Assembly: GCA_036346225.1 (NCBI GenBank)
Contig: JARFIW010000588.1
Location: 4,159,501-4,223,500 of the forward strand
DNA from: Platerodrilus igneus
Taxonomy: Eukaryota; Arthropoda; Insecta; Coleoptera; Lycidae
Direction: 5' to 3'
DNA length: 64,000 bases
The translations under genes and the position numbers were made by a program. Below the pieces are notes generated by a model. It ran no database searches. It saw nothing but the letters and a program-made list of their open reading frames with translations, and was not told the origin of the DNA. Each line of letters begins with the position of its first letter. The stretch's first letter is position 1. Positions 13,639 to 56,239 of the stretch are shown in pieces.

Positions 13639-15979
13639 ATGGCAACTAGAAGAACCCGAATAAAACCTGTGGTAAATATACCACAGGGACGAAAAATTGA
13701 AAAGAAACCCAAGGAGGAACTGGATACTAGTGTTAAACCCGACGATGTGAAAATAAATATATCCTTAAATGATACACCTTCGACTACTGATCATAATATA
13801 AATAAAGAAGTCATTGATATTGAACATGGTAGTTGTAAAACCACGCAGAGAATTTTAGAAAGTATTAACACTGTAAAAGGTATACTCACAAGTCCCAAAC
13901 GTGTTAATAATGACGTTGTATTAGATGCAGTTGACAATTTGGCTAGTAATTTAACTAATGATAAACCAATGAGGCGAAGTCTTATTAAACCAAAGTTAAA
14001 TAAGAAAGTGTTAGAAAAAAGTAGGGATAACCATAAGTCGCTTGATGTGAAGGAAATAATAGATGAACCAAATACTCTATCCAATTCTGAAATCCAAATT
14101 AAATCATTGGAAACTACGGATGCAATGTGTCAAAATCTTGCGAAAACATGTACTGATACTGAAGAAAATATTCCATTAATAGACAATATCAAACATGTTG
14201 GGAATAACATCAGAAGTTTGCCTTTTAAACATATTGAGGGCGATAATTGTAAAACAATACAAACAATTTTACCGGATCTAAATGCTATAACGGATATAAT
14301 CACGAGTCCTAAACGTGCTGATAATGAAGTTACATCACATATAGTTGAAAATTTGGTCACTAATTTAACTAACGATACATGTATATCACAAAAGCCAACA
14401 AGGCGAAGCCTTATTAAACCAAAGTTAAATAAGAATGTGTTGGAAAAAAGTAAGAATACTTGCAAGTTGTCCAGAAGTACTATTAATTCGACGGAACTAT
14501 TAGATAACACAAATAATGTATCAAGTTGTGATATTCAAGTTAAATCAAAGGAGAGTGCAGAATCAAATGTATGTAATACTGGCGGCACCACATGTACTAT
14601 CACTGAACAACATGTATTTTCACCAATAAAAGATGACAAAGATGCTGAACATACAATTAGACCCGTATCTTTTACAACTACTGAACGCAATAGTTGTAAG
14701 ATTCCGCAGAAAATCGTACTAGATACCAACACTGTAACTGGAACAATCACAACTCCCAAACATGTTCATAATGAGGTTACATTAGATGCAGTTGAAAATA
14801 TGGATATTAATTTAATTAATGATACATGTACTCCACAAAAGCCAATGAGACGAAGCCTTATTAAACCAAAGTTAAATAAGAAAGTGTTAGAAAAAAGTAA
14901 GGATGACCACAAGCTGCTTAAAAGTATTATAAATGGGAAAGAAAAATTGGATGACTCAAATACTCAATCCAGTTCTGAAATCCAACTTAGATCACTGGAA
15001 ATTACAGATGCAACGGTTCAGAATCCGGCCAGTACATCTACTAACACCAAGCAAAATGTACTTCTATTAATAGAAAATGTTGAAAATGCTGGGCATAAAA
15101 TTAGAGATATACCTTTTAAACTTATTGAACACGACAGCTGTGGAACAACACAGAAAATTATAAACAAACCAAAGGAGAAATCTTTGGATACTGCTGCTAC
15201 AACTGAAGGTATGAAAGATGTACTTTTAAATGATACACTTTTGTCTAGTGACTGTAATATTGATAAAGAAGTTATGGAACAGAAAATTTTAGAAGATATT
15301 AACACCGTAAAAGGCATAACATCAAGTCCTAAACATGTTCAGAATGATATTATATCAGATGTAGTTGAAAGTTCGGCTGCTGATTTAACTAACGATAAAT
15401 GTACTATACAGAAGACATCAAGACGAAGCTTCATTAAACCAAAGTTAAATAAGAAAGTGTTGGAAAAATGCAAGGATAGCCACACGTCTCCCAAAAGTAT
15501 TATTAATACAAAGGAAATATTGGATAACACAAATACTTTTTCTAGTTGTGAAATCCAAGATAAATTACTGGAAACTATGGAATCAACTGTAGATTATCCT
15601 GAAGTTACATGCACTTACGCTGAACAACTTTCATGTCCAGCAATAAAAAATGATAAGAATCCCGGACGTAACATCCGACGTTTATCTTTTAAACCTACAT
15701 TAAATCCTAAATTACTAAACAATTTAAAACAAGAACAAGTTGTTGATTCTAAATCGTCTGAGAATGATACTAACATGGGATGTGTAAAAGAAGAAATTGT
15801 TAGTTCAAAAGATCTAACAAATCGAATGGCAAAATTAATTAAAGAAATTGATCATAACAGTGCGGAAACTGTAAAATATTCGTTAGCTAAACCAACAGTT
15901 AATCAGGATATATTAGTGGATGTTGGTGATGTCAATAACCCAGGAACCGAGATGAAGGAGGATTCACAATCTTGTGTGG
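13639..15979 (+). CDS. BDP1: BDP1 (TFIIIB subunit B''), exon 1: N-terminal repeat region
   Basis: BDP1 is the B'' subunit of TFIIIB. With TBP and BRF1 it recruits RNA polymerase III and helps open promoters of tRNA, 5S and U6-type genes in the nucleus. This exon encodes residues 1-780 plus one base. The N-terminus (RRTRIKPVVNIPQ) resembles the basic start of BDP1 proteins. Four degenerate units begin near residues 64, 201, 350 and 498. Each carries INTVxGI-type, TSPKxVxN and LTND segments and then the basic box RRSLIKPKLNKKVLEK (R112, R255, R404, R595). Looser boxes follow at R680 and K746. The rest is Ser/Thr/Asp/Asn-rich and probably disordered. The start is the first ATG after an in-frame stop. 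The exon ends at GTAAGT (15980), phase 1. The frame stays open for 2.3 kb. Identity rests on exons 3-5, and linkage to them is supported by matching phases. An upstream non-coding exon remains possible. Confidence 0.88.
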
Positions 15980-17529: not shown

Positions 17530-18320
17530 ATGTACCAAATCGATCACTTTATCTTAGTAGTAAAACGTTACGACTACTAAACTAAGTAGAAACCTCCAAC
17601 ACTATTTTCACATTGGCACTATTTATGCCTCAACACTATACTTGCTCATGCACCGGTTTGATTATTTTGTCTTAGTAGTGAAACATTACAACTACTAACC
17701 TAAATTGAAATCTCAACACTATTTTCGCCTCAGCACTGGTAGTAAAACATTGCAAATACTAACCTAAGTTGAAACCTCAACATTATTTACGCCTCTGCAG
17801 TATTTACGTCTTAACACTTTTTTCGCTCATGCACCCGTTCGATTATTTTGTTTTAGTAGTAAAACATTTCGACTACTAACCTAAGTTGAAACCTTAACAC
17901 CATATTTGCTTCAGCACTATTTATGCCTCAAGACTATGTGTTTGCTCATGCACCCGTTCAATTATTTTGTCTTCGTAGTAATACAATTCGTCTACTAATC
18001 TAAGTTGAAACCTCAACACTATTTTCGCTTCAGCAGTATTTAGGTCTCAACACTTTTTCCACCCATGCACCCGTTCGATTATTTTGTCTTAGTAATAAAA
18101 CATTTTGACTACTAACCTAAATTGAAACAGCATTATTTTTGCCTCAGCACTGTTTATACCTCAACACTATTTCCGCTCTTACATCCATTCGATTATTTTG
18201 TTGTAGTAGTAAAACATTTCGGCTACTAATCTAAGTTGAAACCTCAATTTTTGCCTCAGCATTATTTATACCTCAACACTATTTCCACTCATGCACCCGT
18301 TCGACTATCTCGTACCTGAA
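17530..18320. repeat. Minisatellite, about 6-7 copies of a 112-120 bp unit
   Basis: The landmark ATGCACCCGTTCGATTATTT recurs in varied form at about 17532, 17650, 17830, 17950, 18067, 18181 and 18293. Spacings are about 118, 180, 120, 117, 114 and 112 bp. The long interval holds an extra partial unit. Each unit contains an imperfect hairpin, TTAGTAGT...ACTACTAA, and then two related CTCAACACTATTT / CAGCACTATTTATG blocks. No protein is encoded. Confidence 0.85.
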
Positions 18321-20645: not shown

Positions 20646-21403
20646 ATACCTTCGTAAATGGGGTACAGGCACATCTCTAATGGAACAAAAGGTCAGTCCT
20701 TTCCATTATATTCTATAATTTAACCTTCAACTTATTTATTGTCGAAACGACGTGGGCACATCATAAATTTTTAGGTGTAATCCCAGTTATCCTATTATTT
20801 ATCAAAGAGCTTTGTAGCACATTTATTATCCATACGTCTATATGCAAACATTGTTGATCGTAAATCTTAAACCCCTTCTTAAAGGTTTTATAAACTGTTT
20901 GTTAAAATACCGCAGGCGGTTTTCTCAATTGACTGCTATCTGTGTAAAAACCGGTTCGCTCACCCCTATACGTTTCTTATCTCAAGGCGTATTGTGCGCC
21001 TGCTAAAACCAATTAGCATTTCTTTACCTTACCGTCAATTACATATATAATAGCTAATTTACGGCTATAACTTAAAATTTTGTCGCTCATGACAGCTGTT
21101 TCCCTTTAAAAGGCTTACATTTCTATAATTGAATTTTACCGTAATTTACTCAGAATTTATTATCCATAAGCTTTAGTGTATTTTCAAATACATTCATCAA
21201 ACTGCTTTCTGACATACGTTAAAAAATTATAAACAACCCAAGTTTAAAGGTTTTAATAACTTGTCCTGAAATTCTCTAGTAACAATTCTATTCGCACATT
21301 GCAGGTCGTTTTTAACTACCTGTAATTTAACCCTATAACCATTTGTTATTTTTTCATATTCACATCCTGTTATTTAAGTGCGTTTTTTAGATTCATAAAT
21401 ACA

Positions 21404-23635
21404 ATGACTGAACTTAAAGCTGACAACCTGAAATATTTTGTAGCTCATCGTGGCATTTTAAAATCCACTTTAACGCGATTTGATTCATTTATTAGTAAAT
21501 GCTTGATATCATTGTCAGAAGCGTCCCGCATTGACTTGCAAACTCGCTTAGAGGCATTTAAAAATTTACCAGTCGAATTCGAAAAGATCCAAGGAGAGAT
21601 TGAACAAATATGTATTTCTAGCGACCTTTCCGAACTCGAAAGTCAAGATCGGGAACGAGAAGAATTTGAAACACGATATTATGCTTTAGTTGCTCAAGCT
21701 AAATTACTTCTTGCAGACAACAAGCAGTCAACTATGACTGCGATGGGCATTCAATCGCAAGAAACACGCTCCACGATGCAATATTTCAATCCGAGCCTAC
21801 CTCCCATCCCGTTACCTGAATTTTCAGGTTCATACGAATCATACATTAATTTTAAAGAAACCTTTGTGTCTCTAATAGACAGCAACTCTCATTTAAAGAA
21901 CGTAGAAAAACTTTACTACTTGCGATCAACCCTGGGGGGTGAGCCATTGAAAATTATCAAATCATTAGCGACTACCGACGGTAGCTACGCCACTGCTTGG
22001 CAATTGCTTAAAGACCGGTATGAAAATAAAAAGGCTATTATTCATGCTCATATGAGATCCATGTTTGAGATTCAAGCCGTTAAAGATGGCTCCCATCAAC
22101 ATTTAAGAAATTTCTTGGACTCTTTCCAAAATCATTATAAATCGTTAGAGAACCTTGGCGAAAACATTTCTGATTGGAGCACAATGCTAATTTTTCTTTT
22201 AACCTCAAAATTGGATTTAGCTTCCCGTAAGGAATGGGAAAATTATTCCAAGCACGAGCAATCATCTCACATTAATCAGTTTATAACTTGTCTTACTGAC
22301 AGATGTAAGTTCTTAGAATCTCTCGATTATAAACTAGCTCACACGGACAGAAGGCCGGAAATTAAGCCAAGATATATTCAACAAGCCAAGGGCGTCTCAC
22401 ATACACTCTTAGCTGCATCCCCCACCGCTAAGCCTTGGCCGTTATGCAAGGAATTTCATTTTTTGTATTCATGTAAGCGTTTTCATGACATGCCTATAAG
22501 CACCCGATTTGCTGAAGCCAAGCGTGCTAATTTATGTACGAATTGTTTGCGTTCGGGACATAAAATAGCTGATTGCAAATCCATCCACTGTTGCAGAACA
22601 TGTAAGGGCAAACACCATTCTTTATTACATAACCCAGTTTCTAGAGAACCCGCGAGTTCACAATCGCAACAAGCCCCTATATCATTGCCTCAAAACGAGC
22701 CTAAGGTTGCTCCACAAAATGACCGTAGTCTCTACTGCACAAATCAAAATCCAAACTCATATATTTTATTATCTACAGCTCGCATTAAGGTATACAATGC
22801 TAATCGTAGATTAGTTACTTGCAGGGCAATTTTAGATAACGGCAGCCAAACCAATTTTATTACTGACGATTTACGTAGACAACTGAACCTTCCATACGAA
22901 ACTATAAATTTGCCAATTTCAGGAATAAGTCAGACTCTTGTGCCGACTACCAAACGCGTAAAATTAGAATTCCAATCCTCAAATGGCGCGTTTACATTTA
23001 AAATACCTACTTTAGTAATCAATAAAATAAGAAACCTCATCCCTCAATATGAGATTAACCCTGAAATTCTAAATAATTCAAGCGATATTCAATTAGCCAA
23101 CAACTACTTTCATGAGCCTCCCGAGGTGCAAATACTCATTGGCTCAGGTCTATTTTTTGATACAGCAGACATTGCCAAAATGTATCGCCATATATTAATA
23201 GCACCTAATCAGCGTGATCTTCAACGCATACTATGGCATGAAAACCCGGCTGACGAGATAGCCATTTTTCAACTCCAAACCGTAACTTATGATATGGCAA
23301 GTTCCAGTTATTTAGCAATACGCTGCCTCAAAGAAATATCCATTCAATGTAAAACTGAATACCCCAGGGAGAGTCGAATCCTCGAATTGGATACTTACGT
23401 TGACGATGTAATAACTGGCGCCTCCACTCAGGATGAGCTTAAACTTGTCCGTCAAAACCTGACTAAGATACTAAAATCCTATGGCTTCAATCTACGAAAA
23501 TTCACATCCAATAGTCCTGCCGTACTATCCGACATAGAGGAAACTAATCCAAATGTAGAATTTATATTAACTGACCCAGCTCACAGCAAGGCATTGGGTA
23601 TAACCTGGAATTCTCGAGACGACGTTTTCGATTAG
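21404..23635 (+). pseudogene. BEL/Pao gag-protease-RT, internally deleted
   Basis: The 743-residue open frame begins with a coiled-coil gag and then shows a capsid-like DUF1759 region (PLPPIPLPEFSGSYESYINF, KLYYLRSTLGGEPLKIIKSL). A zinc knuckle region follows (CTNCLRSGHKIADC, CRTCKGKHHSLLH), then an aspartic protease/DUF1758 motif where the usual DTG/DSG is NG (ILDNGSQTNFI). At about residue 580, ILIGSGLFFD joins directly to ADIAKMYRHI of the RT, so the segment normally between protease and RT is missing. The RT palm then has YVDDVITGA and HSKALGITWNSRDDVF, and the frame ends where LINE C begins. Though open, it cannot give a full BEL polyprotein. Confidence 0.9.
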
Positions 23636-25870: not shown

Positions 25871-26005
25871 TCTTAACTATGAGGCCATAAAGAACGAGTT
25901 AATATTGGCAGATTGGAAGTATGAAATAACCAACATCGATAAACTTTATAAAACATTTTACGCAAACATTAAAATGCAATTGACCATAATTCATATGACA
26001 AGGAG

Positions 26006-27470
26006 GTGTCACAAAATAGTTCAAAATTATGGTTTAATGGAGAAATACAAAGAGTAATTAATATACGAAATAAATTTTATAAAAAATTTACATTCACTAG
26101 AAGTATGGAAGATTGGAAAGCATACAAAGAATGCAGAAATAATGTGATATTCATGATCCGTAGAGCTAAGATTAAATATTATGAAAAGAAAATAGATGAA
26201 AATAAAGGTAACCCAGTAAAAATGTGGAAGACTTTAAAACTTGTATTAAAAACCGAACGTATTCAAAATAGTAAGCACATTATATTTGAGAATACACTAG
26301 AAACTAATGACAAAACTATTGCTGAAAACTTCAATACTTACTTCATAAATAGTATAACAGAAATTACATCATCAATTGGTATTGAAAAGTTTGAGTTTCA
26401 CGATCCAATACGTACAAGCCTGAAGGAATTAAGTACTTTTAAATTATTAAAAATACATGAACTAAAAGAATTGGTATATAAGCAAGCGAATAAAAGCAGC
26501 CCGGATGGTGTAAACAGTAGAGTTCTTAAAGAACTTTTTGATATTATTGGTTATCCGCTACTAAACATAATAAATATGTCTCTTATGCATGGTATTGTGC
26601 CCAAGGACTTAAAGATATCCACAATTACACCAATTCAAAAAGTGGTATCAACAAAGAAATGCGAAGAGTACAGGCCTATAAATATGTTGGCCACAATTGA
26701 AAAGGTATTAGAAACAGTAATATATAAGCAACTGAAGCAATTCTTGGATGAGACTAATATATTAACCACCTATCAGTCTGGTTTTCGAACGAAGCACTCG
26801 TGTGAAACAGCGATTCAGCTAATTATAAATGACTGGAAAGAATCAATGGATAAAGGAAAGGCAGTGTGTGCAGTCTTTATAGATTACAAAAGAGCATTTG
26901 AGACTATAAGTAGAAATATTCTCATTAAAAAATTGGAAAAATATGGGGTTAAAGACAATGCGTTAGAGTGGTTTAAAGACTACCTACAAAACAGAGAGCA
27001 AGAAACGAGATGGCAACGGAAACATCTAATAAATCAGAAATTGAGTGGGGTGTTCCACAAGGAAGTATTTTGGGACCATTGCTTTTTATAATTTACATAA
27101 ACGATATAGTGAATGTAGTGAAGGTAACAAAGATGCATATGTTTGCTGATGACACTTTAATATATGCTGAAGGTGCAAATGTAATAAACCTGATTCAATC
27201 TGTAAATAGTGACTTAATAAGAATTAGCAAATATTTAGTTGGAAATAAGCTGAAGATAAATGTTGATAAAACAAAATGGATGTTGTTAAAGAATGATAAA
27301 GGTTATCAAATGATAAAAACAGAAAATAGGAATGTACAAATAGATGGGTCTGATATTGAACTGGTAGAGAACATTAAATACCTTGGCGTAATAATCAACC
27401 GAAAATTAACTTTTAAAATGCATCTACAGATGGTTATAAATAAAGTAAGCAAAAGGTTGGATTTCTGAGA
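26006..27470 (+). pseudogene. LINE C reverse transcriptase, one frameshift
   Basis: The frame 26006-27091 covers SSPDGVNSRVLKEL, ISTITPIQKV, EEYRPINMLATIEKV, YQSGFRTKHSCETA and FIDYKRAFETI (first catalytic Asp region). Near 27000 the frame shifts, and 27010-27468 continues with GVPQGSILGPLLFIIYINDI, FADDTLIYAEG (catalytic FADD intact) and VENIKYLGVIINRKL. The motif set is complete, and apart from this shift the RT is only lightly decayed. Confidence 0.9.
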
Positions 27471-28096: not shown

Positions 28097-30430
28097 TTCA
28101 AACATCAAATCTAAACCGCGCCAACTTACTAAAAGAAATTTATTGTCCACTATATCTACGATTTGGGACCCGTTAGGTCTTCTTGGGCCAATGATAATCA
28201 CTATAAAAATTCTTTTGCAAAGGTTATGGTGGCAAAAGACTGACTGGGACGATCCCGTACCTCATGACATATATAGAACTTGGAGAAATTTTATTGATAA
28301 TTTATCTTTAATTCAATCATTTAAAATACCTTGCCAAGTAGCCGTCAGGGAACCGTGTTATCTTGAGTTACATGGCTTTTCTGACAGCTCTTTAAATGCT
28401 TATGGTGCCACAATTTATGTGCGTTCCATAGACTCTCGAGGCAACATTGGAAGCAATTTGTATTGCGCGAAATCACGTGTTACGCCTCTTAAAGCCATCT
28501 CTTTGCCCCGTGCAGAGTTATGCGGTGCTTTGATGTTAGCGCGTCTTGCCAAACGCATCTTAGCCGCATGATAAAATGTTTTACTATACTGATTCTACGA
28601 TAGTTTTATGCTGGCTCGCTTTAGAACCACGCAGCCTAACAACTTTCGTTTGTAACCGAGTAGCGGAAATTCAAATGTCTACAAATGTTGAAAATTGGCA
28701 CCACATAAGCTCAGCAGACAATCCTGCCGACCTAATATCCAGAGGAGTGAGTCCTCAAGAGCTTCAAGGTTGTAAATTATGGTGGCATGGGCCCCAATTT
28801 TTAACTGAGCCAGCTTCAAATTGGCCGAGTAATACTCATATATCTAACTTTACACCCCAGTCAGCCACTCACGACATTCCGGAATTTAATGCCAGGGCAT
28901 TTGTTTTAACCTCGCAGGAAACAAAACCTCAACAAGAATTTACATTTATTAAAAATATGTCCAACCTATCTAAATTATTAAATGTCGCAGCCTATTGTTT
29001 AAGGTTTATCAAAAATTGCAAGGAACATGCAAACTCTAGAATTTCGGGGCCGCTTACTCCCGAAGAAATAACACACAGTAAAAATCTCCTTATACAGTCT
29101 GTTCAGAATGCAGCATTTTTAGACGACATCCATTATCTAAAAGCCCACGCCCGAGTGAAAGCTTCCAGCAAACTAAAGGCTTTAAACCCCTTTCTTGATA
29201 ATAATGGCATTTTGAGGGTTGGAGGCCGACTTATGCATTCTGACCTAAGTAGTTCAGCCAAGCACCCCGTGGTGCTCCCTAAGAGACATATATATACCGA
29301 TCTGGTTATTTTAAACGAGCATACGCGTAACCTTCATGCTGGTAGTAATGCCACACTATCCGTTGTGCGGCAGAACTTTTGGGCCCTTAAATAGTAAAAC
29401 TGCAGTCAAAACTATCCTAAAAAAATGCGTTCCTTGTTTTAGGGCGAATCCACAACCGGTGAACAACATAATGGGAGACCTTCCCAGTTCTCGCGTCAAT
29501 ATGTCTCACCCTTTTTCTGTCTCCGGCGTTGATTACGCTGGTCCCTTTTTGTTGAAACAAACTAAATATCATAATCGCCGTTTCTCTAAGGCATATGTCT
29601 GCGTTTTCGTGTGCATGGCTGTCAAGGCGGTGCATATCGAGTTAGCCACCGAACTAACGACTGAATGTTTTCTAAGTATTTTGCGTCGTTTTATCTCTAG
29701 ACGCGGTCTATGCAAGGATATATTCTGACAATGCGACAAATTTCGTTGGCGCCAATAGCGAGCTACAGAATATTCGTGACGTCGTACAACAAGACATAAT
29801 ACAAAACTTTTGTAGGGAAACCAAAATCAATTGGCATTTCATTCCTTCTAAGTCGCCCCATTTCGGGGGAATCTGGGAGAGCTCAGTAAAATCCATCAAG
29901 AGTCATCTACGGCGTATTGTAACTGACTCGAATTCCTTAACTTATGAGGTATTTTATACATTATTAGTGCAAATCGAAGGTGTCCTAAATTCTCGCCCGT
30001 TGTGCCCACTCAGCAACGATCCCCATGATCTGGAACCCCTAACACCAGGTCATTTCTTGATAGGCCACCCTTTAAACATGTTTCCTGACCTCAATATCCA
30101 GGAAAAGCCTGTCAATCGTTTGTCTCGCTATCAACATGTACAATACATGCTTCAACATTTTTGGACACGATGGAGATCAGAGTATTTGCATACATTACAA
30201 CAAAGATCTAAATGGCAATTTGCTCCTGCGTCCTCCCAACTGCTAGGAGCCATGGTCTTACTGAAAGAAGACAACGTTCCTCCGCTTCGTTGGCCTCTAG
30301 GTCGTATCACTGCTGTACATACTGGAAGAGATGGTGGTGCGAGTAGTTAGTGTAAAAACCTCCAGTGGTGTGTTACGACGAAGTGTTGTGAAGGTGTGTC
30401 TGTTACCAGTGGAAATCAGTCGTACCTAAT
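28097..30430 (+). pseudogene. BEL/Pao RNase H and integrase region, multiple frameshifts
   Basis: After LINE C the pol resumes with TKRNLLSTISTIWDPLGLLG and GFSDSSLNAYGATIYVR (RNase H), then RAELCGALMLARLAKR and a stop at 28571. The frame 28576-29394 has FYYTDSTIVLCWL, SSADNPADLISRG and the integrase zinc-binding end HAGSNATLSVVRQNFW. After a shift, 29336-29728 has CVPCFRANP and GVDYAGPF. Another shift leads to YSDNATNFVGAN and HFGGIWESSVKSIK, then LLVQIEGVLNSRPL and LGRITAVHTGRDG, with a final shift before a stop near 30430. The integrase Asp, Asp and Glu are all still visible. At least four frame breaks make it inactive. Confidence 0.9.
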
Positions 30431-37733: not shown

Positions 37734-39071
37734 GGTTATTACAAATGAAATAGACAGTTTGGATAGCCTTTAAAAAATCAGACTGGTGTATATTTGAATA
37801 TAGTAAGCGAGATAGGTTTATAGGGAATTTCTTAAAGTTTATGTTGGTACAACTGTTAGGTTGGTACTGCTGTTAAAACAACGACCAGTCTAGCAAAATG
37901 ACCGCTAATAAAGTGGAGAAAGCTTATTGTGTTCTTGAATTAGCCAAAACAAAGTCTGTTACTGTTGTGCAGCGTCATTTCAGAACAAAATACGGTAAAA
38001 CACCACCAACAATGCAATCAATCTATGACTGGTATAAACGTTTCGAAAATAGTGGATGTCTGTGTAAAAGAAAGAGTACTGGAAGACCTCCTGTTACAAA
38101 AGAACAAATCGATAGTGTTTGTGATGTTTATTTACGAAGTCCAAGATAATCGACTACATCAGCAAGTTTAGAATTACAAATTCCTCAACCTACTCTGTGT
38201 AGAAAATTCTGCGAAAACGTTTGAAAATGAAACCGTATAAATTGCAGTTAGTACAAAGTTTAAATGCCGGTGATAAAGTAAATGCGTAACAATTTTGTCT
38301 GGAGATGCAACAATGTCTCGAAAATGATGACACATTCTTTAATCGCCTAATTTTCAGTGACGAATGTACCTTTCACATTAGTGGAAAAGTTAATAGACAT
38401 AATGTAAGGATATGGGGCACAGAAAACCCAAGAGCGACTTTACAACATATATGCGATTCCCCTAAAGTTAACGTGTTTTGCGCTTTATCTCGTGAAAAGG
38501 TTTACGTTCTTTTTTCACGAAGTGTCAATAACCAGAGTAATTTATCTGGACATGTTACACGAATGGTTAATGCCTCAACTACAGGAAGATAGTGATAACT
38601 TCGTTTTTGTATAAGATGGAGCTCCGCCTTACTGGCACTTACAGGTCAGAAAATATCTGGATGAACATCTTCCTAGACGATGGATCGGCCGTGCAAGTGA
38701 GGAAAACCTTGTGCTTAAGCCGTGGCCACCTCGTAGTCCAGATTTAACGCCCTGCAACTATTTCTTATGGGGTTATGTAAAAGACAAAGTTTTCATACCA
38801 CCGCTTCCTGTTGATATCGACGAACTTAAACAACGTATCACAAATACTCTTGCTACAGTTGACCGTTACATGCTTAATAGCATGTGGCAAGAATTCGACT
38901 ACCGTGTTGATATCTGTCGTGTTACCAAAGGTGCACACATTGAACATTTGTAAAAATTTTAAATAAAAACTTAATCATTTCTTCTTTATAATCATATAAG
39001 TAATAACCTTAACTTTTCAAAAATAAACTTTCTATAACCTATCCAAACTGTCTATTTCATTTGTAATAACC

Positions 39072-40715: not shown

Positions 40716-42360
40716 CCATTTGATCAATCAAGCATCTATGATGTGAAATGTTAAGTTATGGATTCTCTTTGCCTCAACTAGCTGATTCAATTAAATAAAG
40801 CAATTCTACAATACACAATATAATGATTAAATATTTACAACTTTTAAAATCTTTGCCTTTTCAGAATATTAACATGTACCAGATTTAAGAAATTGAAGCC
40901 AGCAAAACTAGCCTTTTTGTTCATACTTAGAGGCCTTTTGAAACGTTTCAAGATGCCTATTACCTTTCATAAATTGATCATTGAAACTACTGTTTTGTTG
41001 ACTCTTACATATACGAAAAATATTAAATTAAAACAGTTTTCAGTAATAAATTATATCAATATCGCTAACCTGGAATGGTTCTGTAGTTCCTCTGCATCCC
41101 CCAAGAATTTTCGTGCCAAGTCTGAATATTTAGAGTCGAATTTGGAAGTCGACATCAAAACCAACATACTCTCCAAATCGTTATTAGAATCCAATTCCAT
41201 AAATTAAAATCCCATTTAAGATTCAATTTGAATATCAGTAAATAAAAGATTTTCCATGTCCGTAATTAACAAGACAGTAATAGAACATTTACCATGTCAG
41301 TGTTTAACAAGAAGTAATTACTAAAAAGTAATTAACCAGAGTAATTACAGGAAGTAATTAACAGGATTTTTCCATGTCAGTATTAAAAGAGCCCTGTTTT
41401 ATTTATGTTCGAAATGTATTTTTATTAAGTCGTTATTTACTTACGTCTATAATAGATCGGCTCACACTTGCACAATTTGTACACTTTTCGAAATGATTTT
41501 AATTTACTTTCGTCTCACTGGATACGTAAATAATTTAGCACTTTAGAGTATCGTCGTAGCCCAGTTTAAAATGTATACTAAACTCGTCGCTCATTCCTTA
41601 TCGTATTTAAGGCCGTACCTCTTTTGTTTTCCATTCGTTTATTCACGTGTTGGGACGACACCTTTTACCTTTATCTTTGTGTATTCCGGGAATTTTACCA
41701 ATTGTTTAGTTCAAATATTCGAATGAATGCTTGACTTGTCACGTATTACACTCACCTACCATAGTATTTAATTTGAGAAATCCCACGAATTTCCGTTTAT
41801 TTAATCACGTATTCATTGTTTATTACTTATTCTAATCTAAATCGAAATAATCTGTTGTCAGTTTATTTCCTAGTTAATATTGGATTTTTAAAAAATGTAA
41901 TTCTTTATGTCATGTACGATTTTCAAATAATGCATAATTTCTACTGCGTATACGGTGATATTTTTAACGCATTTGTTAAATATTTATCAAGCCAATTCAT
42001 ATAGGTTTTCCTTTGATTTAATTTTGATGCATTTTGTTACGTTTTCAAATCTTATCTTAACTTGTAACTACTCTTGGATATTTCTATTTCTTATGCGTTT
42101 AATCTCATGTATTTTTATATACAGTGTGCTCTCAACTAACAATATGTATAGTGACCTATTTACTCTTTTAATATCTGTAATTATGTGCTTTTGTTAACTG
42201 GAAGTTTTTTTTATTTATTCTACGACCCCTGTGACTTAACCTACCCCTAAACTACCCTATAATTATAGCATTAAATATATTTATTTATTTATTTATTTAT
42301 TTAGTCACTTAATATATTATAATTAATTTTTATAAATTATTAATGTTATTAATTTAGTAG
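40716..42360. other. End of intron 1; only a (TTTA)n tract seen
   Basis: AT-rich sequence with a (TTTA)n run at 42278-42302, possibly the tail of an antisense LINE whose body I cannot recognise. Short AGTAATTA repeats occur at 41310-41370. The BDP1 exon 2 acceptor ends this stretch. Confidence 0.45.
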
Positions 42361-43619
42361 GTAAAGTGAAATCTGAAGAGGAAGATGTTGAAATTGTATG
42401 TAAACAAAAAACCTTAGATGATATAGACCAAATAACTAACACACCAAGGTTAAGTATTACCAGAAGACCTCTTATTAGACCTGTATTAAGCAGAAAATTA
42501 CTAACAAAAGTTGGCCCAAAGGTTTCTATTTCTACAACGTCTCAATTGTCTGATGATAATTGTGTTTTGGACTTACCACAACAAATGTTGCAGGATTCTA
42601 GTGATCAACAGTCCACTTCGTGTTTTGACATAATGCAAGCAGACATTGTCATACCAGGTGCAATGGTGAAGGACGATACTGATCAAGTAGTTAATCAAGA
42701 CCTTGTAATTCCAGCATCTTACAGCAGCTACTCAGACCCTGTACATTTAAAATTCGTTAACAAAACAACTAACGAGTGTAATATAAATTCTTATAAGAAT
42801 AATCAACAAATTAAATTTCAGTTAGGTGTCAGCGAAAGTGATGATATGAATACAAATTGTAATGAATCTGAAATTGAATTGCAAAAATGGTATGTAGCTA
42901 AAAATGATGAGAGTATGCTTACAAGTCATATCGATAATGTCATTGCCGAACTAGATATTGATTCTCGAATGGAAGTGCGAATGAAAGTACAAGATGATGT
43001 GAATATGGTTAACATTACAGATCTGTCTGATTTGCACAGTGATTTTATAAATGATAAAAGTAATTGTAAAGTTGAAAATGATACTTCCAGTAATACAAAG
43101 TTAACCGATACGAAACCAAAACCCTCCAGACGAATCTTTTCTAAATCTATTTTAAACAAAAAATTACTAATACAAAGAAAACAGGAATATATTAAAAATG
43201 AAGATCCTAAAGTAGAAGATACTGAAACTAACGATGTCTTAAATATTGCGCGTCTTCCACAAGAAGTGACTTTTGATTCACAGTCTGATATCCTACAACT
43301 TAGTGAGTTGGAAATCGCTTCAACAAATGAACAGGAAAGTGGCGATTCAAATCTGTTTGTTAAACCATCGGTTAATCTTATGGTAACAAACGAGAATGGT
43401 GCAAATCAAGTTTTTGATGACAATTACCACAACCAGCGGGAAGAACTAGAGTGTGATTCAGAGCAAATTACACCACCTCCTAATCCTGTCAAGATGATGG
43501 GTAGAGGACGCATTAAAGCGGTACCTTATTTAGGTCGACGTAGGGTTAGTTCATCTCTTTATGGAAGTGCAAGTGAGTCAGAGGATGATGTATGCAGAAA
43601 ACGAAGTAGGACTGATTCG
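42361..43619 (+). CDS. BDP1: BDP1, exon 2: acidic linker with two more basic boxes
   Basis: The acceptor TTTAGTAG precedes 42361. Two bases complete the Gly codon begun in exon 1, then K-V-K-S-E-E-E-D-V-E follows, so the phase fits exactly. The exon encodes residues 781-1200. Basic boxes related to those of exon 1 recur: RRPLIRPVLSRKLL (R815) and RRIFSKSILNKKLL (R1037), separated by acidic, Ser/Asn-rich sequence. Near the end KMMGRGRIKAVPYLGRRR and an SESEDD acidic run are seen. The exon closes at a GTATGA donor (43620), phase 0. There is no internal stop. I recognise no folded domain here. The repeated boxes tie this exon to exon 1 across a 26-kb intron. Confidence 0.88.
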
Positions 43620-43669
43620 GTATGAATCTAATTTTAAATTCGCTGAATGTATTTCACATATAATTACAG

Positions 43670-43905
43670 GCATCTTCCACAAGTGGCATACAAGAGTTAA
43701 ATGATAGTAAAATATTTGATGGTATGGAAGAATGGAAAGATATTAAATGTGCAGTTCCAAGGAAATGTATACGTTCAGAACAATCTCGTAAAGTAGCTGA
43801 GGCAAGGCGAACTTTTTTGCAAAAGTTTGGTAATAGGGTTCCTGATAAACAAAATCTTACTATGATGGATTTAATCTATTATAATCCATGTACAGAACCA
43901 ATGAG
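43670..43905 (+). CDS. BDP1: BDP1, exon 3: conserved segment before the SANT domain
   Basis: This exon is joined to exon 2 by a 50-bp intron (43620-43669, GT...ATTACAG) in phase 0. It encodes residues 1201-1278. The end of the exon, LTMMDLIYYNPCTEPM, matches the conserved BDP1 segment [LM]T[ML]RDLIYYxPxxNPM that precedes the SANT-containing core. The helical, basic stretch before it (RSEQSRKVAEARRTFLQKFG) corresponds to the conserved helix in that region. The donor is GTATGT at 43906, leaving two bases (AG) that are completed by a T in exon 4 to give Ser. Reading on into the intron would add only 12 residues before a stop. Confidence 0.9.
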
Positions 43906-44126
43906 GTATGTAAAACTTGTTATTTTTTTTGCTTTTATATAATTCGTGTTTCGTATTAAGGTCTTAAGTAAAAAATTGGCATATCTAAATAAAGCGTTGG
44001 ACTTAATTCCACACTTCATTCTCTTTCGTTTGGTACTAAGAACTTATGTCTAACACATACCGTTTGTACTTTATAAATTGATCCAGAGGTGGTAAGTCAG
44101 ATAATTGCTCATATTGTGGTATTAAA

Positions 44127-45285
44127 GTGATGTTCAAAATGGCGGGTGATGAACTGACACGGCCTGACGACGGAGGCAAAACTTTGTGTAATGTATGCAA
44201 TAGGGTGCAACTGGTGGCCCTAGGTGTGTACAGTGCAAAAATTGTAAGTCAATATTTCATAGAAGTTGTGCGGAACAAAAAAAGTAAAATCATTGATGAA
44301 AATTACGTGATTTGTTGTCAAAATGAGGATCGTCCAACTTCGGAAATTAACGCAGATGCTCATGAAATACACAATGTTTATGACATCGTAAGTGTGCAAA
44401 AGGAGCTAATTTTATCATTACGTAGTGAAATCAATTTACTAATTGAAAACACAACACTTCTAAAAGAAAAAATTTCTCTACTACAATCTGAAATTCACAA
44501 ATTTAAGTCGCAATTTGGCGTTAAACAAAATCCTTATGATGCAATGGCCTCTAAAGATAAAGGAAGTGCACATGCAGCGTTACAGCAGTTTAATGATATG
44601 TCACGGCCACCTGCCAAGCAACGAGTTTATGATGTGAATAAGCAGACATACTTGCCGCGTTACTGTGTATCTATTACTACTGACAATACTAATAATAGCC
44701 AGGAACGTCCTAAACTTTGGTCATTGCGAAAGCATGAAAATATACAACAGGAAATTATGACATCCATCATTAACCTAATTGATGATAAGGTGAGTTTGAA
44801 GGGGTAAAAATAATAATAAAAATAAAAATATTAAACGCCACCAGCACAATGGTGATCGTAAAAATAATCTCTTCACCACAGGGGGGTAACCAATCTAACA
44901 ATCCTCCTTGCAATATAAATACAAAGGAGAATGAAAATGTGTTTATGAAGCAAAATTCTACAGTGGATAATAACCCTTTGAAACGAAAATTTATTATAGT
45001 GGGTGACAATGCTGAATCTGATATTCAGGGGATAGTAAAACCTTCGTTTGTATTTATAACCAGAGTTGACCCTAAATACAATAGTGATGATATTAAAAAA
45101 CATCTGCAGAAACATTCAGTGGAAGCAATCTCCTGTGAAGAGTTGGCAACAAAATTTAATCATTACAAGTCATTTAAGGCTGCAGTACACAAACATTCCT
45201 GGGAAAAAATTTTATAATCAAACAATTTGGGGTAATAATATACTTGTTAAACCATTCAGAACTAAAAATACACCTAAACATTTTT
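44127..45285 (+). pseudogene. LINE D ORF1 (PHD-like finger, coiled coil, C-terminal domain), broken
   Basis: The frame 44127-44807 holds part of the cysteine motif and a heptad-rich segment (ILSLRSEINLLIENTTLLKE, KISLLQSEIHKFK), as expected for a trimerising ORF1 protein. After stops, 44849-45217 contains PSFVFITRVDPKYNSDDIKK and LATKFNHYKSFKAAV, a C-terminal RNA-binding-like fold common in such ORF1 proteins. The last residues (IWGNNILVKPFR) are in a shifted frame. Confidence 0.7.
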
Positions 45286-45359
45286 AATAAATTCCGACCA
45301 ATCGACTAATATAGTCGACTTATTAAAGATGACTTATTTCATGAATCTATAGATGTAGA

Positions 45360-45985
45360 TCTAAATATTTTATGTTTAAATATTCAATCCTTGGAAAATG
45401 AGTTAAATTGCAATGTACTATTCCTAAATGAGTTAAAATTTTAAACGAGATGAATTTAAATTTTTAAAACTAAATAGTTTAATTCCTATATCATTTTTTG
45501 CTAGACCAACTCGCTTGTGGAGGGGTGTAGCAATCTTAGTAGATGAATTAACTTTAAATCTGTCCACCCATGTGGAATCAATTAGTCGACATTCAATTGA
45601 AACACATGTGGAAGTATGTGCGGTCTATTTCAAATCTCTTAAATTAACATTAGTAAACATATACAGGCTACCCAGTGGTTCGTTTGGATATATTTTTTGT
45701 TAATATGGAGAAAATATTCAAAGACTGCAATAACTTGTGTTACCAAAATGTAATAATTTGTGGCAACTTTAACGTTCATTTTGGAAGTACTAAAGAGGAT
45801 GTCATTTTTTTAATTGATTTCTTTGCAGCATATGGTCTGCATCCGATTAATTTTATAGCCACCAGAAATAATAGTTGTTTAGACAATATCTTCACAAATA
45901 TCTCTGGATTATCGTGCAAGGTAATTAATACTGGTCTATCAGATCATATGCATTATTTACACAGGTTGAAAGTACCTTGAATATT
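45360..45985 (+). pseudogene. LINE D APE endonuclease, broken
   Basis: It reads LNILCLNIQSL, FLNELK, RGVAILVDEL, KLTLVNIYRLPSGSF, then after a shift NVIICGNFNVHFG, NSCLDNIFTNISG and GLSDHMHYLHRLKV. The GxFNVxF and SDH motifs of APE-type endonucleases are present, but two frame breaks and an early stop disrupt it. Confidence 0.8.
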
Positions 45986-46821
45986 GTTTCTGGAGTGCAA
46001 GTGGTTTCGTCCAATCACTACTCGGGGTACATTGAGCTTTTATAACTACCTCGCACAAGTTAATTGGAAATTTGTAGATGATTCTTTGTTGGGTTTAAAT
46101 GTTAAGTTTGGTCGTTTTTTATGTATTATTCTGTCAGCTTTTGAAGCTAATTTTCCATTAAAATATGTTAAAGATTTTGGTAAAAAAATCGAATCCGACT
46201 GTTACCTGGTTATCTGAGGATCTAAAAAGAATGTGTGATACTTATTTAATGTATATAGATTTGTATAACGCGTCACCAAATGATACCCTAAAAATCTTGA
46301 TGAACAAGTTTAAATCTGATTATAGAAAGGCGTTGAAAAAGGCTAAACTTCACGCACATGATAGTTTTATTTTAAACTCAGTTAATAGCAACAAGAGTAA
46401 GTGGCAAATCATTAACGAAAAAAAGTGATCTGTCAGTAGTGATACTACTGATACAAGTTTAACTACTGAGGATTTCAATCATTTCTTTATTGATTCAGTT
46501 ACCAATCTTACATTGGAAAAAGCTCAAGAGGATATTAATTCTATCGTAATCCATGATTCAACAAATACATCATTTCTGAATGATAAATTTGCTTTTAAAG
46601 AGGTCTCGTGTGGACACACGAGGGATATAATAATGGCTATGAAAAACAAAAATTTTAAAGATTATTAGGGGCTATAAATTCTGCTGAACAAAAGTATTAC
46701 TGATGTTATTTTAATACCACTAACTACGCTTATTAATTATGCAATTAGAGATTCAATTTTCCCAAATGCACTAAAGGTATCCAAAGTCGTTCCTATTCAT
46801 AAAAGAGGCACACTCAATAAT

Positions 46822-47815
46822 ATGAACAATTATCGGCCAATTTCTCTTGTGCCTATTTTTTCAAAAATTTTTGAATCTATTATAAAGACTCAAATAATTG
46901 ATTTTCTTGATGATAATAACGTACTATGTCCGCAGCAATTTGGTTTTAGAAAAAATAAGTCAACCTCTGATGCAATAATAACTCTGCTTAAGCAGATTAC
47001 GAGCACTTTTGATAAACGTGAGTTTATGTTGGTTAACTTGTACGATTTGACAAAAGCTTTTGATTTTATAAATCACAATATTCTGGTTGAGAAGTTGGGG
47101 CTGTTGCATTTTGACTATTCTGGTATTAAATTAATTCAGTCGTATCTTTCTGAACCCTATCAATGTGTTTACTATAACAACAAAGTTTCCAACTTGCAGA
47201 ATGTTCCTCATGGGGTCCCACAAGGTTCTGTGCTGGGGCATCTGCTTTTCCTATGTTTTATTAACGATTTTCCTTCAACTTGTGACTTGGAGAATGTGAT
47301 ACTTTATGCAGATGACACCACTGTATATTACCAACATAAAGACATGGAGCAGCTTCTGCAGAAGAGCAATGTCTGTTCGAGCATCATCCAAAACTGGTTT
47401 ATCCATAATAAATTAACTTTAAACAATGATAAATCTGAATAGATTTTATTTTCTTTAAAAAATACTATTGAATGAGAGAAGCACAGTGTTAAATATCTTG
47501 GGGTTCATTTTGATAACACCTTAAGTTGGGAGACACATTGTAATTTTCTTGTCAAAAAACTTTGTCATACTATTTCCTTTATTAAACCTTTAAAAAATGC
47601 AGTCTCATTAGATGTATTGAAAACAGTTTACTTTGCCTTCTTTCATTCCAGTGTTGCTTATGCGATCAATGCATGGTGTCATTCCCCCGCAAGCAATCGA
47701 ATTTTTGGCTTGCAACGCAAAGTTATTCATGTTATAGCTAATATTGCTTACCGTGAGGATTGTCGTACTTATTTTATGAGGCACAACATTTTAACTGTGC
47801 CTTGAATCAACATAT
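46822..47815 (+). pseudogene. LINE D reverse transcriptase, mostly open
   Basis: The 206-residue frame 46822-47442 has NNYRPISLVPIFSKIFESII, QFGFRKNKSTSDAI, LYDLTKAFDFINH (the usual D in F-x-D is retained as YDLTKAF), VPQGSVLGHLLFLCFINDF and ILYADDTTVYY with YADD intact. After two stops, VKYLGVHFDNTLSWETH continues, and 47617-47805 has the C-terminal part. An upstream linker (46165-46428) precedes it in another frame. Confidence 0.88.
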
Positions 47816-48324
47816 TAGAATGTTTACGGTATGTTAAGAAAAATGAAGCCCTCTATAATCGACACAATGATATCCACTCATTTGTACCCATAGTAAAATT
47901 AATCTAGTGGTGCCATATCAGCGGATTGAAAGAAGTAGGTCAGGAACAAATTACTTTGGGAGTATGTTATTTAACTCTTTGAGTGTGAATGTAAGAAATC
48001 TTCCGATATTAAAATTTAAAAAAAATATATAAAAAACTTGCTCTTAATATATGCTTTTTATAGCATTAAGGAGTTTCTTGATCGAACTAAATCTATAGAG
48101 ACTTACATAGATTCCTGAAATATAAATTCTCTTAATTTAAATTTTGTTAATTAAGCTCTAAATGGTTCTTAATTATAATTGTTATCTGAAAATATTTAAA
48201 ATTGACAATATACGATTCACTATTGTGACCTATGTATGTACATTTATAAATAAAAATAAATAAAATAAATAAGTTCACATAGGTTCATAAGAATAGTATC
48301 AAAATATTGTAGATAATTGTAGGA

Positions 48325-49276
48325 ACTAGTGCTGGCAATGAAATTCGATTAATCGATTAATCGAAAATCGCGGTTTTTAAAAATTAACAAATCGATTATT
48401 CGATTAATAGAATATTCGAATATTTGATTAAGCGAATTCAAATATTTGAATAATCGATTAGTCGACCAATAGACACACCTATTAGAAATAATGGGTAAAT
48501 AAAATACAGTTAAAAGAAAAATGGTTTGCTTTTATTTCTATTAAGAGGCAAGTCCTTACAGAACGAAAGTTCTTGTAAATTTAAAAATATAACAGTACAA
48601 AGACAAACATGTTGTAAAAGATTTATCCTAAAAGGAGTAATGCCTGTTTTATAATACAAGGGAAGACCCTCGATTCTACTTTAAACTAAACCTTCTAAGA
48701 ACTAATAAAACTTAAGGGTGTTCTGACCTGGGAACAGGAACCGGACTTGTATACAAAATTACAAATGATATATTTTTGTCATATAAACTGGAAATACATC
48801 CAACAACACCTATAATCACTGTTATTTGATTAACTGACTTGAATGAATTGGAAGATTAATTTTTTATTGTGTTAATTGACTATCATGATTCGTGACGTAT
48901 ATGTAATTCAGTTTGATTACCTAGTAGATTAAAATCAACTACCTACGTAAGTGTATAATAATATAGTAAGGAAACGCCTGTATTAATAGCTGTTCGATTT
49001 CCGATTACCTAAGTGGGTCCACTATTATAGTTTACAATTTAGTTGTTGCTTATTGAACTGCAAGCTCATAATTTTAAAATTATTTTATAAGTTTTTTTAG
49101 GAAGAGTTTAAATCAAATCCCTTTGGCTCTACCCTTAGCTAGATCGTTGGAAATTCCAACCGCATTACTCATAAAACCCGCCACCTGTTGGTCGACTAGT
49201 TTCCTCTTCAATCCTTCCTTATGTATTTCAACTTCACATTCACTTCTTTCACATCATAATGTATCTGGCAACAAAT
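48325..49276 (+). mobile_element. Putative hAT element 5' end
   Basis: AGTGCTGGCAATG at 48329 is followed by a run of ATTCGATTAATCGA-type words to about 48470. A TAGTGCTGGCAA-like end with ATTAATCGAT repeats is a common look of insect hAT termini. The next 800 bp are AT-rich. The hAT coding remnant begins at 53276 beyond an LTR element, so the two may be halves of one element. The 3' terminus was not found, so this is tentative. Confidence 0.45.
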
Positions 49277-49883
49277 TGTTACATGCAAAAATTGGCATTT
49301 TACAGTTTTAAATATGTGACTGAATCCCCGCCATTATTTTTAAAATAGACTTGTGCATTTCCATCATTTCGGACAGTTGCATTTGCACAAAAGGAATGCG
49401 CAGACGCGGAGTGATGGCGCAAGTGCGCGGTGTGTGACACGACAGGATTAGTCAACGAGACGTCGAACAGTGCGTTCCTTTGTCTTTTCTCTTTCAGAAT
49501 GTAGGTTTCCCTTTATCTCTACCTTCTATCGTTACCTTCACCTTATTCCTTCGTCCTGCCTACAAACAGAGGAAGAGGAAAGACATTAAATCTGGTTTCA
49601 ACGAGGGCATAACGTAACCCAAGCCCAAACGAGATACATGGAAATCAACATGGCCCCTGTGCAAGGATGACAGCGAAATCGTGAAGGGTTCCACATTTTT
49701 GGGTGAGTGCTTTTTATCTCTTTTAGGGTGCATTTTGTATCACTGTAAACATATTTGGCATGTGATACAATTTGACACGAAATTATGTCGTAATATCTTT
49801 GTTGTGCAATAATGTGAAAGTGGATAGTACCAGTGTTGCCAACTGTGGAAGTGGCTCTGAACGCTAGACGCGGGGGTGTAACA
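49277..49883. repeat. LTR (left) of the 3.9-kb element
   Basis: 607 bp, TGTTAC...GTAACA ends with a 6-bp inverted match. A GC-(A)AAAATTGGC hairpin lies at the start. It is followed by CCCGCCATTATTTTTAAAAT, shared by the related copies. Confidence 0.7.
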
Positions 49884-50867
49884 GTGCCGCCTAAACGTTG
49901 CGTTGAAAATTTGTCTTCATCTCCGATTTATCTTATAAGGGTTAGTTTAGAATATCTTTGTAGAAATTGGGTTTTTTCACTCAAAAATAATAAAAAAATT
50001 ATAATTTTTTAAATTTTTAATGGCTTTTGAATAGAAGAAATATAATCTGGCGACATTGCATTTGGCAACATCTATTTTATGTTGGCGTGACATTGAATGC
50101 AGTTGAAATGTCAATCTGAAGCATTTTAGTCGGCCATGCTTGAACAGTGTTTGTTTACCTTTCATATAACTTATTTCTAACTGAATTAATTGGCATTTTC
50201 CCGTATAAAAACAGTATTTATATTTTAAATTCTCTTAAATAATTACTTAACCTAATTTAGGATGAAACTAAAGCATATACCTTCCAAATGTGTTTAGCAA
50301 ATTACATAACCTCACTTCTAGGTGGAAACATGTGCTTTTGGATTAAATAATTTTTTCTGTAAGTATTCTACCATAGATATAAACCTATATGATTAAAAAA
50401 AAATCTCCTTAAAATGACATTAAACTTAGTTGTTTAGGTAACTCATATTTTATCTTACTTTACCATAATTCTAAAGTGTTCGCTTACAATCTAAAGAATT
50501 AACTATAAGTTACAAATTCCTTCTTAAAGAAAATTTTGTCCGTAAATACAGCTAACGCAATCAACTGAATTCTTATCTTGGTATATCTATACCTTCTAAA
50601 ACATTGTTATATCCGCTTTCTTAAATACTACAATAGTCAGGTTGATGATAATGTTTTACATTTAAGTTCATTTACTATCCCCTTTAGTTACGATGGTTGT
50701 TGATAAATTCCTCGATATAAAAGTAATACGTTAATAATTTGGTATACTGTTTTTTTCTGTAAAGGTATCGCTAGATTATTGCTTTTGTGTAGTGAGCATA
50801 ATTTTATTTTGATACCTAATTTTTTATTTATATCGATATTGCTACGCAGCATTTTAAGATCTATTTG

Positions 50868-51085
50868 GTCTAGGCAAGACTTGTCGTCATGGTTAGTCGC
50901 TCAGCAGTATGTTAGTCTAGACGAAACTCATGAAGAGTTGGTCGCCCAGCATTACATAAGTCTAGACGAGACTTGTGGTAAGTTTGTCGCTCTAGTAATT
51001 TTCGAATTATTTTTTGGGGATGATGTTGAAGTTTTTCTTTATTAGTCTAGGTGAAGCTCAAAGGAGGGCTTGTCCCCCTAGCAAT
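50868..51085. repeat. Tandem repeat, about 3-4 units of 60 bp, inside the LTR element
   Basis: Units carry TTAGTCTAGACGARACT followed by TTGTCGCTC/TTGGTCGCCC and AGCA. The same words recur at about 50868, 50930, 50990 and, degenerate, 51045. The open frame across it (YVSLDETHEELVAQ, YISLDETCGKFVAL) is a by-product of the repeat. Confidence 0.65.
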
Positions 51086-52578: not shown

Positions 52579-53194
52579 TGTTACATGCCAAAATTGGCAT
52601 TTTACAGTTTTAAATATGTGACTGAATTCCCGCCATTATTTTTAAAATAGACTTGTGCATTTTTGTCATTTCGGACAGTTGCGTTTGCGCAAAAGGAATG
52701 CGCAGACGCGGAATGATGAGTAAGTGCACGGTGTGTGACACGATAGGATTAGCCAACGAGACGTCGAACAGTGAGGTTTACCTGTGTCGTTCCTTTGTCT
52801 TTTCTCTTTCAGAATGTTGGTTTCCCTTTATCTCTACCTTCTATCGGTGCCTTCACCTTATTCCTTCGTCCTGCCTACAAACAGAAGAAGAGGGAAGACA
52901 TTAAATCTGGTTTCGCGATGGCATAACGTAACCCACGCCCACACGAGATACATGGAAATCAACATGGTCCCTGTGCAAGGATGACCGCGAAATCGTTAAG
53001 AGTTCCGCATTTTTGGGTGAGTGCTTTTTATCTTTTTTAGAGTGCATCTGTATCACTGTCGACATATTTGGCATGTGATACAATTTGACACGAAATTATG
53101 TCGTAATATCTTTGTTGTGCAATAATGTGAACGTGGATAGTGCCAGTGTTGCCAACTGTGGAAGTGGCTCTGAACGCGACCCCGGAGTATAACA
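52579..53194. repeat. LTR (right) of the 3.9-kb element
   Basis: 616 bp, closely similar to 49277-49883 along its length, with small indels. It is the better-preserved copy of the TGCCAAAATTGGCA hairpin at the 5' end. AAAT follows. Confidence 0.7.
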
Positions 53195-53275
53195 AAATGC
53201 TACTTGAGGTCGTGTTGAGATTGAGTTGAGATGTTGTAAAGTGTGTTTTCCATTTCAGTCTGTGATTGAAAAGTT

Positions 53276-55555: not shown

Positions 55556-55863
55556 ATATATATATATATATATATATATATCCAAAAACTCGGCAACGGA
55601 CAATTAACTTTTGCGATACGTATTAAAAGCGGTGCGCCGTCACATTAAAAAATTCATATCTCAGAAAAAAATTGGTATTCCCGCGTTTTGACATATATAC
55701 AAGGTGTACCACATAGTAAGCTAACTTTTTGAAAAATTTCAGCCTCCTGCGTTTTCCCAAAAACTCGGCAACGGACAATTAGCTTTTGCTATACGTACTG
55801 AAAACGGTGCGCCCTCACATTAAAAAATTCATATCTCAGAAAAAAATTGGTACTCCCGCGTTT

Positions 55864-55906
<43 letters not shown>

Positions 55907-56236: not shown

Positions 56237-56239
<3 letters not shown>

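Follow-up and report, generated by a model that had tools for sequence, protein, structure and literature searches.

The first exon of the BDP1 gene of Platerodrilus igneus encodes four diverged tandem units, and each unit carries a 16-residue basic box that has been kept while the sequence around it has changed. The reading preferred here, with a probability of about one half, is that the box is a short docking motif that was multiplied for avidity in a probably disordered tail. The binding, the gain in avidity and the partner are what we infer. Transcription by RNA polymerase III requires BDP1.

The BDP1 gene

The window is the whole 64-kb stretch of DNA that was analyzed, and the coordinates of exons, units and boxes given below all refer to its plus strand. 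The gene in the window is identified by its sequence as beetle BDP1, the B'' component of TFIIIB. It has five exons and encodes 1698 residues, with a frame that is open throughout and GT-AG ends on all four introns of the joined gene model. Exon 1 (13639-15979, residues 1-780) is an open frame from an ATG to a GTAAGT donor and holds both the head motif and the array. Exon 2 (42358-43619), exon 3 (43670-43905) and exon 5 (58802-59391) are taken from the joined gene model, and exon 4 (58079-58746) encodes the SANT domain. Exon 4 matches PF15963, the BDP1-type SANT family, with an E-value of 3.1e-26 (91.5 bits, cut-off 31). Its PDB matches are human and yeast Bdp1, and full-length human BDP1 is among the PDB entries (8ity_W). 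A preliminary description of this DNA had named the gene a TFIIIB subunit, and these matches confirm the assignment. The N-terminal head motif, RRTRIKPVVNIPQGRK (13648-13695), has RRTRIK at residue 4 of the protein and fits RRxR[IV]K, a head pattern common in beetle BDP1s.

In a tree of 35 BDP1 cores, the window protein groups with 28 other beetle rows with support of 100/99, and the named beetles among these rows are polyphagan. The tree left out four chosen rows (Rhynchophorus, Diabrotica, P0080 and P0043) that were missed by the row-picking pattern. The core of the window protein has no supported neighbor in this tree and forms a long branch of 1.34 changes per column, compared with a median end branch of 0.33.

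The assembly that contains the window is 2.71 Gb in 1723 contigs. A second BDP1-type SANT match in this assembly lies in a short protein (L007, 9579-9902) on contig C1317, which is 862 kb long. This contig looks microsporidian by its sequence, which leaves one beetle BDP1 in the assembly search. Contig C1317 is gene-dense and encodes a TLC ATP/ADP transporter, a proteasome subunit and a family B DNA polymerase beside the SANT protein.

The introns and later exons contain other repetitive or weakly matching sequences. Intron 1 (15980-42357) holds pieces of mobile elements, namely DUF1759 (21326-23632), a reverse transcriptase (25973-27088), DUF5641 (29676-30347) and a Mos1-type HTH (37877-38146), as well as a tandem array at 17557-18308 with a unit of ~117 bases in some five copies. 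A reverse transcriptase piece is also found in intron 3 (43906-58078) at 46678-47439. The start of exon 4 encodes a short run of KVKEE-type units (58100-58195). Exon 2 (42336-43622) also matches AKAP95 weakly, probably by chance, with an E-value of 0.00077 and 20.2 bits where the cut-off is 26.8.

Tandem units in exon 1

In the unit alignment, the four units of exon 1 start at residues 65, 203, 352 and 545. Unit 1 spans 13831-14244 and is also delimited by the DNA repeats; unit 2 spans 14245-14691, unit 3 spans 14692-15135, and unit 4 spans 15271-15720. The preliminary description had placed the four starts at 64, 201, 350 and 498. The number of units and the first three starts agree with the alignment, but at residue 498 unit 3 meets an additional stretch that precedes unit 4. 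As DNA, the units are direct repeats with a spacing of 414-573 bases and 68-90% identity to the reference copy (families D1, D3 and D6). Self-BLASTP of the window protein gave no second match, and the units were therefore aligned directly. The stretches between the window boxes align with each other in all six pairs (z 12.9-30.1), and the four units go far past what chance would give. With the box removed, the Jukes-Cantor DNA distance between units is 0.29-0.45 substitutions per site, units 1 and 3 being the closest, and the array is therefore neither recent nor an assembly repeat. An extra copy of the N-terminal flank precedes unit 4 (15226-15278) and copies 13765-13817 with 79% identity (D13). 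The copied stretch is the one that follows the N-terminal head, and this suggests that unit 4 came from the start of the array.

When a 105-residue piece of unit 3 was searched against the assembly, at least four matches were obtained and all were inside exon 1 (28 of 28 candidates scored). A paralogue or a mobile element as the source of the array was rejected on these matches and on the microsporidian look of the second SANT match. The array used as a protein query (residues 1-850) found nothing at an E-value of 10 or less among 7986 scored candidates. Exon 1 has no Pfam family and no PDB match up to E 10, and a comparison with phage records gave no match, as expected.

The boxes and their charge

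The main box, box A, is located at residues 112, 255, 404 and 595. The four copies are A1 (RRSLIKPKLNKKVLEK, 13972-14019), A2 (RRSLIKPKLNKNVLEK, 14401-14448), A3 (RRSLIKPKLNKKVLEK, 14848-14895) and A4 (RRSFIKPKLNKKVLEK, 15421-15468). Four looser boxes had been described at residues 680, 746, 815 and 1037, the last two in exon 2. Their ungapped scores were set against the best scores obtained in 1000 shuffled versions of the protein, in which the four A boxes were masked. Two of them stand alone statistically: the box at residue 816 (RRPLIRPVLSRKLLTK, 42462-42509), whose score is reached by 0 of 1000 shuffles, and box B4 at residue 680 (RRLSFKPTLNPKLLNN, 15676-15723), reached by 1 of 1000. The box at residue 1038 (RRIFSKSILNKKLLIQ, 43128-43175; 36 of 1000) and the weak box at residue 746 (KYSLAKPTVNQDILVD, 15874-15921; 57 of 1000) are borderline. 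The boxes at 816 and 1038 are in exon 2, as described. The N-terminal RRTRIKPVVN fails, its score being reached by 213 of 1000 shuffles. A third basic element, GRGRIKAVP, is found before a SESED stretch (43497-43544), in the same place as the RSRIKAIPRL of other beetles.

Box B4 had been described as following the array. However, it lines up with decayed copies inside units 1-3, and a second box therefore seems to have been part of every unit. The second-box positions of units 1-4 read NIRSLPFK, TIRPVSFT, KIRDIPFK and NIRRLSFK, and B lies some 80-85 residues after A. The second box thus seems to have decayed in three of the four units and to be readable only in unit 4.

Over 17 aligned boxes, two arginines, a lysine and a proline (R, R, K, P) are invariant, and F or L and I or L are found before KP. 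Each of the four 16-residue A boxes carries a net charge of +5 or +6, and the charge of the intervening stretches is -4 to -8. TFIIIB sits on DNA, and both points would suit a box that is a nucleic-acid tether. As a tether, the basic boxes would bind DNA, RNA or nucleosomes near Pol III genes, with no specific protein partner, and copies would add affinity. The linker that human Bdp1 already inserts into the DNA groove (PMC5526994) points the same way. However, the uncharged positions of the box are kept too, including the invariant P and the F/L and I/L before KP, and the AT-hook core GRP is absent from the eight window boxes examined. A tether of this kind is considered unlikely.

Selection on the box

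The box had been proposed to be under selection, more so than the spacers, and comparison of the units agrees, with strong purifying selection on the box and much looser constraint on the rest. Between units of this one gene, rather than between species, dN/dS is 0.09 in box A (bootstrap 0-0.47) and 0.68 outside it (0.49-0.94). Differences at codon positions 1, 2 and 3 number 3, 0 and 17 in box A and 239, 250 and 224 in the rest. Amino-acid-changing differences occur at a rate of 0.026 in the box, and none of the 107 16-column windows that do not overlap it falls below 0.201. Of 20000 random sets of columns, none matches the constraint on the box. The synonymous differences in the box are not unusual (pS 0.25; 22 of the 107 windows are as low or lower, median 0.37), and therefore the constraint acts chiefly on the protein. 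Two other causes of box conservation, gene conversion and an element acting in the DNA, were rejected because a pS of 0.25 is within the range of other stretches.

In orthologues, the expected excess of box over spacer conservation is found in three of four beetle families, in a comparison where some members are unnamed proteins assigned to families by similarity. Conservation of the box and of the rest of the head-to-SANT stretch is 0.86 and 0.49 in Tenebrionidae, 0.82 and 0.36 in Lampyridae, and 0.81 and 0.38 in Cerambycidae. Scarabaeidae have no clear excess (0.69 and 0.52), and 57 of 196 other windows are equally good in this family.

The same data can be read as those of a fast-evolving gene in which tandem duplication left the array as a by-product. 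Copies would then be kept only because their loss is partly harmful or because time has been short, and their number would bring no gain. The long branch of the BDP1 core, the spacers that change about equally at all codon positions and the decay of the second box in three of four units are consistent with such a history. Yet all four A boxes are held at a dN/dS of 0.09 despite 0.29-0.45 substitutions per site outside the box. Multiplied boxes in other lineages also argue against it, though with less force among three Schistocerca species, where the box (0.91-0.96) differs little from its surroundings (0.87-0.92). A by-product is judged distinctly improbable.

Origin of the array

Protein searches gave 25 matches and then the best 120 of 245, for a set of 142 different proteins. 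A profile of the internal box was made from 18 beetle-type BDP1s (14 named and 4 unnamed), with the boxes picked by eye and the window left out. This profile scores A1-A4 at 12.0, 8.4, 12.8 and 10.3 bits, and the best score in 20 x 143 shuffled proteins is 6.8. With the same profile, the boxes at 680, 746, 816 and 1038 are all below 3 bits, and the window head scores 5.6 bits. In leave-one-out scoring, the internal box reaches at least 7 bits in 21 of 42 named beetle BDP1s and 3-7 bits in four more, some of the 42 being partial. It passes in five of 26 proteins of other animals: Periplaneta, Blattella, Schistocerca and two Timema. At 7 bits, it is found in none of the six dipteran and seven hymenopteran proteins, and 21 of the 42 named beetle proteins are also without it. 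The box is therefore dispensable in many insects. The head motif is found within the first 45 residues of 36 of the 42 named beetle BDP1s and in 17 of the 26 proteins of other animals.

The box is classed on these matches as an ancestral BDP1 element. Other beetle BDP1s, such as RRKFIKPAVSLNAINRK of Tenebrionidae, are the same gene and have the same internal box between the head and the SANT domain, but usually in one copy where the window has an array. The head-to-SANT distance is 1422 in the window, compared with a median of 428 over 87 proteins with a head, and the next longest are three Schistocerca proteins at 1247-1261. The preliminary description had suggested that the array may be derived from an ancestral BDP1 motif, in view of the likeness of the N-terminal RRTRIKPVVN to the box. 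Descent from an ancestral motif is supported, since a profile made without the window finds A1-A4 and the internal box is found in half of the named beetle BDP1s. The head was rejected as the source because its profile gives no match to any window box. From these profiles, the most likely source is the internal box between the head and SANT, which is single in many beetles, rather than the RRTRIK head.

In pairwise comparison, 18 of 2000 shuffles do as well as the window head does with A3, and 29 of 2000 as well as it does with the box at 816; in four other insects the values are 83-437 of 2000. The internal-box profile gives at least 3 bits to 38 of 88 heads, compared with 44 of 1760 shuffled heads, and a loose kinship of head and box is therefore possible. 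The head profile also scores the third element of the RSRIKAIPRL type, with 29 matches of at least 2 bits in 28 proteins and 0.7 per shuffled set.

Two proteins of the set have other features. Rhamnusium bicolor BDP1 (P0001) has a run of ADENVTI-type repeats after SANT, which is another repeat in a BDP1 tail. A Lutzomyia longipalpis protein (P0021) combines leucine-rich-repeat families with BDP1, has its head at residue 607 and is probably a model in which two genes were joined.

Arrays in locusts and a weevil

As in the window, the internal box is multiplied ahead of SANT in the BDP1s of Schistocerca and of the weevil Ceutorhynchus; those of Schistocerca are annotated as titin homolog or uncharacterized. 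By pattern, Schistocerca gregaria, S. nitens and S. piceifrons have five boxes each, 134-154 residues apart. The beetle profile scores three of the five S. gregaria boxes at 7 bits or more and two at 3-7 bits. Ceutorhynchus assimilis BDP1 has three boxes, at 132, 209 and 328. These proteins differ from the window in having box sequences of their own (RKRMKPTVSLS and RRKFLKPKVN) and spacers unrelated to those of the window. Spacers within Schistocerca are alike (10 pairs, z 24.1-55.2). Window spacers are unlike those of Schistocerca (20 pairs, median z 0.5, highest 2.6) and those of Ceutorhynchus (12 pairs, median z 0, highest 1.4), and Schistocerca spacers are unlike those of Ceutorhynchus (15 pairs, median z -0.4, highest 2.9). 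The locusts and the weevil appear, from their boxes and spacers, to have multiplied the same motif separately from the window beetle. Within Ceutorhynchus, the spacers are not clearly alike (3 pairs, z -0.1 to 3.6), and so the duplication there either covered a short piece or is old. In the S. gregaria units, identity is 0.80 in the box and 0.44 in the rest. In a spider BDP1, two boxes of the RARFAKARPNI type lie close to the N-terminus.

The boxes of these species also bear on the idea that the box is a nuclear localization signal, multiplied without much effect. The classical bipartite pattern (two basic residues, 9-12 spacer residues, and three basic residues of five) fits 11 of the 18 beetle-type single boxes, five of five S. 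gregaria boxes and one of three Ceutorhynchus boxes. It fits none of the four window A boxes, which are the selected copies, and 7 of the 18 single boxes are also unfit. Moreover, the invariant part of the box is the RR..IKP core. A localization signal is thus a very improbable explanation.

Proposed function

The preliminary description had offered a protein- or nucleic-acid-binding array on TFIIIB as one possibility, and a binding array of some kind is a reasonable guess. As a docking motif, the box would be a short linear element whose core reads RRx[F/L]IKPx[V/L][N/S], set in a tail that precedes SANT and is probably disordered. Tandem duplication of a unit of ~140 residues would have turned an internal box into an array in this beetle, and selection keeps each main box while the spacers drift. 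Since each main box is held amid drifting spacers, each copy probably touches a partner and the array would act by avidity. More copies would then result in a tighter or longer-lived attachment of TFIIIB.

The exon 1 stretch is probably disordered. It has no Pfam family, its residues are 1.3% aromatic with no tryptophan, and an AlphaFold2 model made without an alignment has a mean pLDDT of 33. Charge-hydropathy is indecisive, as it neither places exon 1 on the disordered side nor separates it from the SANT domain.

Loss of the N-terminal region leaves human Bdp1 inactive in U6 transcription in vitro and weakens its binding to SNAPc (PMC5526994). In yeast, nucleosomes upstream of tRNA genes change position when the Bdp1 N-terminus is removed, an effect that may involve Isw2 (PMC5911963). 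SNAPc is a candidate partner because human Bdp1 lacking the N-terminal region binds it less. It is the first guess and a chromatin remodeler is the second, and the cited work concerns the Bdp1 N-terminus, not the box.

Vertebrate BDP1 and other comparisons

Vertebrate BDP1 resembles that of the window in having many basic boxes, in its case of the KPKPN type, but they lie behind SANT and the window array lies ahead of it. Fundulus heteroclitus BDP1 has the head RRSRFSVRPN and seven RxRxxKxKPN-type boxes behind SANT, and F. diaphanus has six by the same pattern. The fish head resembles six of the seven fish boxes (at most 14 of 2000 shuffles each) and does not resemble the seventh. A profile of the seven fish boxes finds human BDP1 first in the PDB, with an E-value of 0.00048. 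Human BDP1 aligned to this profile has eight stretches, at 613, 705, 808, 1435, 1573, 1676, 1829 and 2095, of which one passes E 10 by itself. The C-terminal extension of human BDP1 is described as having a 55-residue repetitive motif, which is a case of repeats in a BDP1 tail (PMC5526994). Human BDP1 is missed by the insect box profiles, one of which gave only an L4 ribosomal protein (E 0.75). A common origin of the insect and vertebrate boxes is therefore a suggestion and not a result. Set against the human BDP1 repeats, exon 1 has no PDB match to E 10, though full-length human BDP1 (8ity_W) is included.

The N-terminal basic stretch of RPC4/Rpc53 is one that we take to be a possible relative of the box. 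The outcome for this stretch is mixed. One of three box profiles, with hand-picked rows, matches the human RPC4 segment above shuffles (9.4 bits, 0 of 2000), and the other two do not (413 and 1595 of 2000). The 30 kb around the beetle RPC4-like exon has no stretch fitting the patterns used, and the N-terminal exon may lie elsewhere.

Recurrent repeat evolution in KNL1 was reportedly described by Tromer et al. in 2015. The MELT repeats of this kinetochore protein are alike in outline to the window array, being docking motifs repeated in a largely disordered protein (PMC5371998). KNL1 differs from the window BDP1 in protein, motif and complex, and the likeness is one of analogy and not of membership.

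Meaning of the array

BDP1 architecture outside of the SANT domain is described in one paper as little known (PMC3846559). Among the papers listed in searches of the open literature, none is on the motif or on insect BDP1 repeats, and the term KPKPN is absent from the 15 papers listed out of 48. A repeated short motif in the tail of a general transcription factor is of a kind already known. The new elements are the two-box unit, the usually single copy in other beetles, and the locust and weevil arrays with unrelated spacers.

A broader reading, held as tentative and rather doubtful, is that animal BDP1 has a basic docking motif related to the N-terminal head that has been multiplied repeatedly and independently, ahead of SANT in the beetle, the weevil and the locust, and behind it in vertebrates. 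If true, copy number would tune the hold of TFIIIB on a shared partner. This would be a layer of Pol III control for which no description was found in the literature searched. A motif that is kept amid drifting surroundings and multiplied in several lineages provides a concrete 16-residue peptide with which to ask what BDP1 tails bind.
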